64,000 bases of DNA from Bacteriovoracaceae bacterium (lineage in GTDB: Bacteria; Bdellovibrionota; Bacteriovoracia; Bacteriovoracales; Bacteriovoracaceae). The position numbers and the translations under genes are program-made. The notes below the pieces were generated by a model. That model had not been told where the DNA came from. It did no database searches and was given only the letters and a program-made list of their open reading frames with translations. The stretch is from assembly GCA_019752535.1 (NCBI GenBank), contig JAIEMA010000042.1:1-64000 (forward strand), written 5' to 3'. This document shows, piece by piece, positions 37,745 to 47,694 of this stretch; position 1 is the first letter of the stretch, and each line of letters opens with the position of its first letter.

Positions 37745-37766
37745 GGGTGTTGGTGGGACCACACCC
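37745..37766 (+). other. Strong hairpin in the xseB-flgF intergenic region
   Basis: GGGTG pairs with CACCC and TGGT with ACCA, with one bulged T and a GGG loop. It lies 59 bases before the flgF start. It has no T-run rightward. It may be an operator or an RNA leader element. The 199-base gap otherwise holds the GGA-rich flgF leader. Confidence 0.5.
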
Positions 37767-37780
37767 GACGTACAATTTTG

Positions 37781-37824
37781 CCTAGGGACTAGGATGGTCT
37801 CTGCTCGTTAGGTCATGGAGGACC
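37781..37824 (+). promoter_or_regulatory. GGA-rich flgF leader, candidate CsrA-binding region
   Basis: Four GGA triplets (37786, 37792, 37817, 37820) lie within 37 bases. The first is the loop of a perfect CCTAG-GGA-CTAGG hairpin; the last two overlap the flgF ribosome site, itself inside a GGTC-ATGGAG-GACC hairpin. The block ACTAGGATGG resembles the known CsrA SELEX consensus. csrA and fliW lie at the end of the same locus. Binding is inference. Confidence 0.45.
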
Positions 37825-38664
37825 ATGAAGAATATTTGGGTACCACTATCCGGACAAATTGCTCAGCAACGCAAAGTTGAAACCATTGCCAACAATGTGG
37901 CCAATGCCAACACGCCTGGATTTAAAAAAGATCAACTCGTCTTTAAGGAACACCTCACCTCTCTAACGAAGGGAAGTGATGACATTCATATTCCACGCAA
38001 AGAATTTTCGCCAGATGATTTCTATCACACTCAAGGTGGCGAGAATGCTTTTGTGGCCGTTGATGGATCCTACACCAATCATGAACAGGGCCAATTAGTT
38101 CCGACGAGTAATCCACTTGATGTCGCACTTAATGGCCCAGGATTTATTGAAGTCCTTACGCCCCAAGGCGTGCGCTACACAAGAACAGGGAATTTTACAC
38201 TTTCAAGTAATGGCGAACTGGTTACTCTTCAAGGCTTTAAAGTTTTGATGCCAATTGAAATGAGACCCGATGAGCTTCGAGGTCCAGCTGCACTTGGAGT
38301 TCCTGCACCAGAAGATCGTGTGCTCCGTCTTCCTCACAATCAACCCGTGACAATTAGTCGTGAAGGCGAAGTTCTCACCCGCGAAGGAAGTATTGGAAAG
38401 ATCTCTGTCGTTGAGTTCGCAGATAAGCAAGCTCTTAAGAAAGAAGGGAATAATCTCTTTATTAATCCAGAAGAAGCCAATTCGAAGCGAGTGGATTTAA
38501 AAACTACTGTCGCTCAAGGATTTATCGAAAGTTCTAACGTGAATGCGATTGAAGAGATGTCTGAACTTATTAAAGCGCATCGCCATTTTGAATCAATTCA
38601 AAAAGCTATTAATGCATATGACAGTATTACTGGTAAGGCCGTTAACGACCTGGCCAAGTTTTAA
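37825..38664 (+). CDS. flgF: Flagellar proximal-rod protein FlgF
   Basis: Encodes 279 residues. FlgF forms part of the proximal rod of the basal body. It has the rod-family N-terminus (QRKVETIANNVANANTPGFKKD), the central FlgE/F/G domain (NGPGFIEVLTPQGVRYTRTGNFTLSSNGELVT) and the C-terminal GFIESSNVNAIEEMSELIKAHRHFE. It is the first gene of the flagellar series, with GGAGG only three bases before ATG. FlgG follows nine bases later. Confidence 0.9.
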   Translation: MKNIWVPLSGQIAQQRKVETIANNVANANTPGFKKDQLVFKEHLTSLTKGSDDIHIPRKEFSPDDFYHTQGGENAFVAVDGSYTNHEQGQLVPTSNPLDVALNGPGFIEVLTPQGVRYTRTGNFTLSSNGELVTLQGFKVLMPIEMRPDELRGPAALGVPAPEDRVLRLPHNQPVTISREGEVLTREGSIGKISVVEFADKQALKKEGNNLFINPEEANSKRVDLKTTVAQGFIESSNVNAIEEMSELIKAHRHFESIQKAINAYDSITGKAVNDLAKF

Positions 38665-42168: not shown

Positions 42169-42549
42169 ATGCCCGTCGCAACAACCAGGATGGTATTCGT
42201 GACGATAAATTCAGCTCATAATAACAAAGGATTAAAGCCGATTTCCCGCGAGGAAATGCTTAAGCCTTACGTTGAGGTCGCTGAAGGTATGGAAACTCAA
42301 TTCTCAAATCACATGATTGAGCAAATGAGAAAGTCTATTCCTCGCGAAAAAGAACTGAGTTCAGCAGAATCTTATTATGAATCACTTATGGATAACGAAC
42401 GGGCCAAATCTATGGCACAATCAGATACAGGGCTGGGCTTAAAGCGAGTGATCTTAGATCAAATCGTCCCAGCACATTTGAAACAGCAACCTTCAGCGCA
42501 ACAAGCTCGTAGCGCTTATAAGGCTAACGTCAAAGGAGTTGACGAATGA
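42169..42549 (+). CDS. flgJ: Rod-binding protein FlgJ (N-terminal domain only)
   Basis: Encodes up to 126 residues; it lacks the C-terminal muramidase domain of enteric FlgJ and would act only as a rod cap. PYVEVAEGMETQFSNHMIEQMRKSIP and YESLMDNERAKSMAQ match the rod-binding domain. The start is unsure: ATGs at 42169 and 42190 are in frame, while the ATG best spaced from AAGG is at 42165 in another frame. It overlaps flgM by four bases. Confidence 0.85.
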   Translation: MPVATTRMVFVTINSAHNNKGLKPISREEMLKPYVEVAEGMETQFSNHMIEQMRKSIPREKELSSAESYYESLMDNERAKSMAQSDTGLGLKRVILDQIVPAHLKQQPSAQQARSAYKANVKGVDE

Positions 42550-46351: not shown

Positions 46352-46906
46352 TTGAAAGTCAAAACCACGAGATTCGGGGAACTTGAAGTCAACCCTACTG
46401 ATATCATCAACTTTGCTGATGGTTTATTAGGTTTTGACCAACTCAAAAAGTATTTTGTCGTCGATCCGGGTGATAGCACTCTGATTCTTTGGCTACAATC
46501 TATTGAAGACGAGAAGGTCGCTTTCCCTATAATCGAACCTAAAATCTTTAAGCATGATTACATTGCTAAACTTCTTCCAGCAGACCTCAATGGTTTGGAA
46601 TTGGATTCTCTTAGCACTGCAAAACTTTACAGTATCCTTACTATCCCAGCGAACGTGACTGAGATGAACGCTAACTTGAAGGCACCTATTGTTATCAATA
46701 GCGCCAAGAAAGTTGGAAAACAAATCGTTCTCGCTGATAGCAAGCTCACTGTTAAGCATGAAATGTATAAAGAGCTTAAGACTTATATTGTGAATTTCTC
46801 TTCTGATGATTCAAAGAGAACAACTTACTCTCCGAGTATCACTCTTGAAGCTGGCGATCTTCGTACAACGAAAGATAGCTACACAAGACTCGCTAACGAA
46901 ATTTAA
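46352..46906 (+). CDS. fliW: Flagellar assembly factor FliW
   Basis: Encodes 184 residues from a TTG with GGAGG nine bases upstream. FliW binds CsrA and flagellin, so that free flagellin releases CsrA repression. The family core is visible: VNPTDIINFADGLLGFDQLKKYFVVDPGDSTLILWLQSIEDEKVAFPIIEP and ILTIPANVTEMNANLKAPIVINSAKKVGKQIVL. It ends the flagellar locus before a bidirectional terminator. Confidence 0.95.
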   Translation: MKVKTTRFGELEVNPTDIINFADGLLGFDQLKKYFVVDPGDSTLILWLQSIEDEKVAFPIIEPKIFKHDYIAKLLPADLNGLELDSLSTAKLYSILTIPANVTEMNANLKAPIVINSAKKVGKQIVLADSKLTVKHEMYKELKTYIVNFSSDDSKRTTYSPSITLEAGDLRTTKDSYTRLANEI

Positions 46907-46925
46907 TTCATTCTACGAGTTCAAA

Positions 46926-46957
46926 TAAAAAAGCCCTCTTCAAGAGGGCTTTTTTTA
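46926..46957. terminator. Bidirectional terminator between fliW and the TPR operon
   Basis: AGCCCTC pairs with GAGGGCT around TTCAA (longer stem possible) with an A-tract on the left and TTTTTTT on the right. It serves both convergent operons. Confidence 0.93.
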
Positions 46958-46962
46958 TTATC

Positions 46963-47694
46963 TTAAATTGAAATATTTGTTTCGGTTGCTGTGCGAGAGA
47001 GCTGCAAATACATTTGCGCTTCTTGGTGAGAAGGCTCCCTGGCGATAACTCCCTGCCACTCTGATTGAGCTTCAATAATATTACCGTTTCCGTAATAAAG
47101 AAGCCCTAGGGCCATGCGAGAAGGAACGTAGTGAGGATGCTCCGTCTTTAAGCGCTTCAATTCTTCAAAGGCCTTAGAGGTGAAACCCTTTTTTGAATAA
47201 AGCTTAGCAATCTTAATGCGAATTTCTAAATTATCTGGATCTAGGCCAATCGCTTTGTTGTATTCAAAAAGAGCTTCATCCCAGCGCTGGTAGGAGCCGT
47301 ACATTTCCGCCAGCTCATAATGCTTAAGAGAAAACTTTTTGTTTACGTGAGGCTCGGCCAATCCTTGCTGAGGTGACATCTTCACGTGCTGGTTGGCTTT
47401 ATCGAAAACGGCCTTGGCTTCTTCGTACTTACCTATGTCATTGAGTATGACTGATAAAGAGATAGAAGCGTCAGTGTGGTTGGGATCTAGCTCTAATACG
47501 CGATTAAATCCTCTTACCGCTTTTCCAAGCTCTCCACGCATATGAAAGATGTTAGCGAGATAGAAATAAGCCTCAGTGGCATTAGGATCACTATCAATAA
47601 TTTCGTTAAAGAAAAGAGAGGCAGTTTTTAGGTCATTTTTTTGGAAAGCTTCTTTAGCTTTCCGCATGAGATCACTGAGCTTTAGGTTTTCCAA
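46963..47694 (-). CDS. TPR-repeat protein
   Basis: Encodes 243 residues with about five tetratricopeptide repeats, such as TEAYFYLANIFHMRGELGKAVRGFNRVLELDPNHTDA and WDEALFEYNKAIGLDPDNLEIRIKIAKLYSKKG. No signal peptide, so probably cytoplasmic. TPR proteins scaffold other proteins; the partner is unknown. It is last in a five-gene leftward operon, eight bases after the BamD-like gene. Confidence 0.85.
   Translation of the reverse strand: MENLKLSDLMRKAKEAFQKNDLKTASLFFNEIIDSDPNATEAYFYLANIFHMRGELGKAVRGFNRVLELDPNHTDASISLSVILNDIGKYEEAKAVFDKANQHVKMSPQQGLAEPHVNKKFSLKHYELAEMYGSYQRWDEALFEYNKAIGLDPDNLEIRIKIAKLYSKKGFTSKAFEELKRLKTEHPHYVPSRMALGLLYYGNGNIIEAQSEWQGVIAREPSHQEAQMYLQLSRTATETNISI

Follow-up and report, generated by a model that had tools for sequence, protein, structure and literature searches.

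The flgF leader heads a run of flagellar genes that closes with csrA and fliW, and the question raised by this locus is whether CsrA acts on a rod-gene leader beyond flagellin. CsrA and FliW have been described chiefly as a brake on flagellin; in other bacteria the FliW protein counteracts CsrA. The stretch of DNA analysed here (64,000 nucleotides, hereafter the window) belongs to a genome of 3.49 Mb in 76 contigs, and its forward strand carries the genes in the order flgF, flgG, flgA, flgH, flgI, flgJ, flgM, flgN, flgK, flgL, csrA, fliW. FlgF, FlgM and FliW were named by Pfam and CsrA by a 92.3-bit match, with the remaining names inferred from gene order and sequences. The first gene, flgF (37825-38664), encodes a rod protein with the Pfam domains Flg_bb_rod, LlgE_F_G_D1 and Flg_bbr_C. 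At the far end lie the one csrA of the genome (46034-46264) and, adjoining it, fliW (46352-46906; Pfam FliW, 4.5e-34), as the sequence-only reading had stated. The best solved match to the window CsrA was 5dmb_D, which we take to come from a FliW complex structure; query residues 4-76 were aligned, through the C-terminal extension, giving a CsrA with the FliW-binding C-terminus. Both csrA and fliW were found in 119 of 129 family genomes (E up to 0.001), and the same ten genomes, most of them incomplete, lacked both, which made the presence or absence of csrA useless as a test. A hairpin-like stretch 3' of fliW (46895-46982), with several sub-threshold leader or small-RNA matches in Rfam, is probably a terminator.

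That reading had drawn attention to a leader packed with GGA, and four GGA triplets do occur within 37 bases (37786-37788, 37792-37794, 37817-37819 and 37820-37822), two of them overlapping the Shine-Dalgarno region upstream of the ATG at 37825, while CTAGGATGG at 37789-37797 resembles CsrA sites as had been proposed. At least four GGA in the last 44 nt were found in 8 of 553 leaders of the same genome (seven with four, one with five; leaders taken from crude gene calls, ORFs of at least 80 aa with a Shine-Dalgarno match), so that the GGA density of the flgF leader is only mildly unusual. Folded as a whole (37778-37870), the leader is about as stable as shuffled sequences (z -0.30), an uninformative result. 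The perfect CCTAG-GGA-CTAGG stem on which the idea had leaned is present in the sequence (37781-37793, forward strand, -3.4 kcal/mol) but is not the conserved structure: among the five members of the genus its loop reads GGA in one, AGG in one and AGA in one, and the stem is absent from two. It was rejected as a functional structure.

Two other hairpins emerged when the five genus leaders were read side by side. The first, H1 (37785-37801, forward strand), consists of GGGACU (37785-37790), the loop AGGAU (37791-37795) and GGUCUC (37796-37801), and is mutually exclusive with the CCTAG-GGA-CTAGG stem; its loop can be drawn as AGGAU with a U-G closing pair or as the 7-nt UAGGAUG, and its pairing probability is 0.98-1.0 in a fold of 37784-37842. 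H1 is found in all five genus members, with one internal mismatch in two of them, and reads GAGACU-AGGAU-GGUCUC in G002 and, with one mismatch, GGGGUAUC-AGGAU-GAAACCCC in G001. The second, H2 (37811-37824, forward strand), abuts the start codon and consists of GGUC (37811-37814), the loop AUGGAG (37815-37820) and GACC (37821-37824), an ANGGAX hexaloop set directly on its stem and containing the Shine-Dalgarno GGAG (37817-37820), four bases 5' of the ATG. In G001 and G003 it reads GAUC-ACGGAG-GAUC, a change from GGUC/GACC to GAUC/GAUC by one compensatory pair. Both loops thus hold the A(N)GGA core of a CsrA site on stems kept by compensatory change, and their GGAs lie 25 nt apart in the window, within the bridging range of one CsrA dimer. 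Rfam 15 gave no match at the flgF leader with E up to 5.

H2 competes with an alternative, H2alt (37813-37828, forward strand; UCAUGG-AGGA-CCAUGA), which pairs the start codon and also loops a GGA; at -6.0 versus -3.9 kcal/mol, H2alt is the form predicted for the window by the same fold (0.97-0.99). In G001 and G003, one H2alt pair is broken and another turned into G-U, and because the changes within the genus fit H2 better, evolution appears to favour H2. The closing of the start codon by H2alt, and the fact that H2 loops hold the Shine-Dalgarno sequence by necessity, would both suit a weak Shine-Dalgarno hairpin that has no dedicated binder and serves either to adjust how readily ribosomes bind or as a temperature switch, with GGA there only as the ribosome site. 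We regard this as very unlikely: H1, which lies upstream of the ribosome site, retains AGGA in relatives whose stem has wholly changed, and fliW leaders have a GGA Shine-Dalgarno in 86 of 86 cases without such hairpins.

How far the CsrA-type hairpins extend was read from the leaders of all 119 family genomes (of 129, many of them incomplete drafts) in which FlgF was found. Start codons were placed by alignment to the window proteins or, for fliM, fliF and flhG, by taking the start that lay closest and had the best Shine-Dalgarno match; where no start codon stood at the aligned position, the leader was excluded. For H2, flgF leaders were anchored on the Shine-Dalgarno GGA with the stem ignored, one leader was taken per genus (41 genera) and the arms were re-paired 5000 times. 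Full 4-bp stems were found in 16 of 41 genera (4.2 expected) and full 5-bp stems in 13 (1.8 expected), neither count being reached in any of the 5000 re-pairings. By this comparison the H2 stem has been rewritten across the family while its pairing persists, with variants including CACC/GGUG, CAUC/GAUG, GCC/GGC, GUC/GAC and GACC/GGUC. Among the control genes, fliW had 4-bp stems in 2 of 39 genera (1.9 expected), flgL (25 genera) and flgM (10 genera) gave no signal in this test, and flgG (19 genera) and flgK (16 genera) gave weaker, mild signals, as they also did in the anchored re-pairing of H1. At flgF that H1 test gave full 5-bp stems in 7 of 20 genera (0.8 expected; 0 of 3000 re-pairings). 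Re-pairing ignores the tree, and kinship is addressed by the use of one leader per genus and by a control with slid arms.

By a strict definition (an A(N)GGA(N) hairpin of at least 4 bp), 50 of the 119 flgF leaders carried a site, compared to 2.4 in shuffles; more than half had none, including most of those in genus g14. A strict H1 was found in 12 of 118 leaders (2.7 by chance), a weaker signal than at fliM. In genus g24, 15 of 26 flgF leaders carry a different hairpin, CUCC-AUCAGGAYRAA-GGAG, whose stem contains the Shine-Dalgarno sequence and whose loop displays AGGA.

A scan of the window's own genome (450 kb, then 850 kb) indicated fliF, fliM, flgE, flhA, flhG, flgM and the flagellins, where flhG is a MinD-like gene named, presumptively, from its MinD/ParA-type domain and its position after flhA. 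Leaders from relatives were taken for fliM (30 of 47 genomes with a match), fliF (30 of 47), flhG (30 of 30, 29 usable) and flgE (30 of 45). With the same anchored re-pairing, 6-bp H1 stems were found in 12 of 20 genera at fliM (0.9 expected), 9 of 14 at fliF (0.9 expected), 13 of 18 at flhG (1.3 expected) and 5 of 20 at flgF, the expectation over the four genes being 0.4-1.3 and none of 3000 re-pairings equalling the count at any of them. Sliding the 3' arm by 1-3 nt lost nearly all H1 stems (5-bp stems). The upstream hairpins of fliM, fliF and flhG differ wholly in their stems between genera, for example GCGGGAAU/GUUCCCGC, GUCUGUGC/GCACAGAC and UUAAAUCAC/GUGAUUUAA, around a fixed AGGA loop. 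When hairpins of at least 6 bp with any loop were sought upstream of the Shine-Dalgarno sequence, GGA was looped in 16 of 27 at fliM, 9 of 18 at fliF, 16 of 26 at flhG and 9 of 36 at flgF, and in 0 of 56 at fliW, 0 of 27 at flgL, 2 of 31 at flgG and 1 of 10 at flgK (41 of 71 for fliM, fliF and flhG versus 3 of 124 for the four controls).

Both hairpins occur together in 9 of 118 leaders at flgF, 13 of 30 at fliM, 11 of 30 at fliF and 4 of 29 at flhG (shuffles average at most 0.02), with 20-41 nt between the GGAs of these 37 two-hairpin leaders. The pair was missing from the leaders of csrA (0 of 88), fliW (0 of 86), flgL (0 of 94), flgH (0 of 29) and flgI (0 of 33), and was seen once at flgG (1 of 104) and once at flgK (1 of 40, GGAs 79 nt apart). 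The H2 stem of fliM is nearly invariant (97 of 3000 re-pairings equally good) and so adds little covariation. Of four further fliM leaders from family members, three had a site and in the fourth the start was misplaced. A strict site was found in 1 of 16 fliM and flgF leaders from phylum outgroups, so that the element looks family-wide, not phylum-wide. Over 14 fliM, fliF and flhG loci, Rfam (E up to 1) returned one sub-threshold match, at a locus end only.

The one -10-like hexamer seen at the flgF leader is TACAAT (37771-37776, forward strand), which is kept in all five genus members; the sigma-70 scan listed no promoter there. Transcription from this box would begin near 37783, and such a start would retain H1 and H2 in the transcript and cut the CCTAG-GGA-CTAGG stem. 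As the flgF repeats lie within about 50 bp of a probable promoter, they might be thought to act as DNA, as half-sites of a promoter or operator that flank the start of transcription. This is extremely improbable, since the elements at fliM, fliF and flhG lie directly 5' of start codons with a spacing that varies, H2 shares bases with the ribosome site, and arms that vary freely around a fixed loop are the reverse of what an operator would show. A sigma-54-type -24/-12 site is present in 39 of 119 flgF leaders in the family (3 of 614 control leaders) and is absent from the flgF leader of the window. Upstream of the TACAAT box, an inverted repeat at 37751-37761 (TGGTGGGACCA; CGGTCGGACCG in G001) is a possible activator site, because the sigma-54-like site of those 39 relatives is missing here.

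The display of a purine-rich ribosome site in a loop is also suited to loop-loop pairing, and a small RNA that has multiple targets and a UCCU-type loop, or an RNA-binding protein other than CsrA, could in principle read the AGGA loops, the more so as CsrA is assigned to these leaders from sequence comparison. We consider this unlikely. Only about four positions of the loop are constant, the fifth being U, A, C or G, which is short for RNA pairing; the same hairpin is present in csrA leaders and flagellin leaders; and an A before GGA, displayed on a hairpin, is the CsrA code as described in passages of PMC4005645 and PMC7652899.

The likeness to known CsrA sites extends to the form of the loops. 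According to the passages of PMC4005645 that bear on RsmE, the ANGGAX hexaloop set directly on its stem is the high-affinity CsrA/RsmE form and a pentaloop lacking the N lowers affinity; in these terms the window has an ANGGAX hexaloop in H2 and an AGGAX-type pentaloop without N in H1, although the RsmZ loops belong to a decoy RNA whereas those described here lie in mRNA leaders. At E. coli glgC an upstream hairpin is described as tethering CsrA, with bridging by one dimer to the Shine-Dalgarno site proposed (PMC7652899, in part). The flgF leader has the same upstream hairpin site and Shine-Dalgarno site, but differs in that its Shine-Dalgarno site also lies in a hairpin loop and in that covariation is seen in both hairpins. 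With the glgC layout and the high-affinity form at the ribosome site, CsrA would most likely block flgF translation. The B. subtilis Hag-FliW-CsrA system shares the extended C-terminus of CsrA, the FliW antagonist and flagellin mRNA as target, but hag is the target described in that part of PMC7652899, and here genes for the rod, the rings, the hook and number control also have sites in front of them.

That CsrA targets basal-body genes is not in itself new, since C. jejuni CsrA co-purifies with and shifts flagellar RNAs including flaA, flaG, flaB, flgI, flgA and flgM, with flgH and flgE enrichment also tabulated (PMC4894983, in the passages considered here and below). FliW is the antagonist there too, and some of the bound RNAs have GGA near the Shine-Dalgarno sequence; CsrA there acts chiefly on flaA, with weaker binding of flaG, flaB and flgI (Kd above 350 nM), and FlgI levels were without substantial change on csrA deletion. 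Those C. jejuni passages share with our system several flagellar mRNAs as targets but do not mention flgF, and here fliM, fliF and flhG carry covarying paired hairpins family-wide. What appears to be new, on the alignments, is the covarying two-hairpin element common to basal-body genes across a family, of which we found no description in the open-access literature.

From the sequences, their compensatory changes, the constancy of the loops, the distribution of the element over genes and the presence of csrA and fliW, we consider it likely that the flgF leader is a CsrA-type two-hairpin site through which CsrA represses flgF, and that CsrA-FliW acts on much of flagellar assembly. H1 would present AGGAU and H2 AUGGAG, with the ribosome-binding GGAG, both in loops; one CsrA dimer could hold the two, given the distance between their GGAs, and would cover the flgF ribosome site. 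We infer binding and bridging by CsrA with repression, rather than activation, of flgF translation, perhaps also of that of the genes behind it, and relief when FliW removes CsrA. This action would extend over much of the family's flagellar assembly, as the two-hairpin form also precedes fliM, fliF and flhG, and a single hairpin stands in front of flgE, most flagellins and, in many relatives, csrA.

The idea that CsrA acts on a rod-gene leader beyond flagellin is well supported by comparison, even though the stem first proposed for it is not conserved: covarying GGA-loop hairpins lie at the flgF Shine-Dalgarno sequence, the same type is found at fliM, fliF, flhG and flgE, and again in the leaders of csrA and of flagellin genes, both of them known classes of CsrA target. 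CsrA regulation thus probably reaches much of flagellum building, not the filament protein alone. A broader proposal, to which we give even chances, is that in this predatory-type family, which is related to Bacteriovorax and Halobacteriovorax, CsrA-FliW serves as a master checkpoint for translation of the entire flagellum. If it holds, fliF (MS ring), fliM (C ring), flhG (number control), flgF (rod), flgE (hook), filament and csrA would all be CsrA-controlled, and in each life cycle a single small protein could turn the building of flagella off and on, while FliW would signal how far export has advanced. CsrA-type hairpins are strongly conserved on the flagellar genes for the earliest parts; should CsrA bind them, the order of assembly would be controlled post-transcriptionally, beginning at the base, and the stop and restart of flagellum building would be testable with few leaders and one protein.

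At flgE, where the one-hairpin form occurs, 25 of 30 leaders had a site (0.73 expected), mostly a near-invariant GUCU-AGGAG-GGAC. The consensus fold of these leaders gave one upstream hairpin and the Shine-Dalgarno hairpin only, the outer stems not being recovered by alignment. Most of the 30 relatives (L393-L422, e.g. L412 at about 1391-1503) have a conserved structured stretch upstream of flgE, GGCUGGUCC-UUUCCGGAAGCC, with compensatory changes (GGCU/AGCC, GACC/GGUC, GGUU/AACC), which continues into a variable stem around AGYCYGUAGU, in places within an outer stem. The stretch has the appearance of a leader RNA not described before, perhaps with a three-way junction; Rfam gave no match at threshold in 12 flgE loci.

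Strict sites were found in 32 of 88 csrA leaders, 28 of 88 with the H1-type (1.2 expected), in the form GAAUC-AGGAA-GGUUC or relatives of it; the csrA leader of the window is among those without a strict site. The GAATC-AGGAM-GGTTC hairpins occur in many genera (L153, L159, L166, L176, L203, L220 and others), preceded by a conserved TTGC...TAATATATGA stretch that the window's genus and g24 lack. This conservation suggests that csrA has its own promoter and CsrA autoregulation in those genera.

In the window's own genome, 28 of the 553 leaders had a site (shuffles 2.55, maximum 7) and four had two (shuffles 0), three of these four being flagellar; by reading of the gene list, 19 of the 28 are not leaders of flagellar genes. 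The only non-flagellar leader with two strict GGA-loop hairpins precedes a 104-aa gene with no Pfam match (L254, 7347-7658, minus strand). Among flagellins, 5 of 7 leaders carried a site (0.29 expected), the seven genes lying over five contigs (C1, C6 with three, C8, C10 and C17). A candidate hairpin over the flgM Shine-Dalgarno sequence, CGUCAA-AGGAG-UUGACG (42528-42544, forward strand), was seen in the window. No flagellin and no FlgF was found in five family genomes (G031, G035 and G108-G110), the first two of which also gave no FliM, FliF or FlgE match. In all five, csrA and fliW are adjacent, with a FlgM-domain gene in front (L423-L427), and lie at the position occupied by flgF-flgL in relatives.
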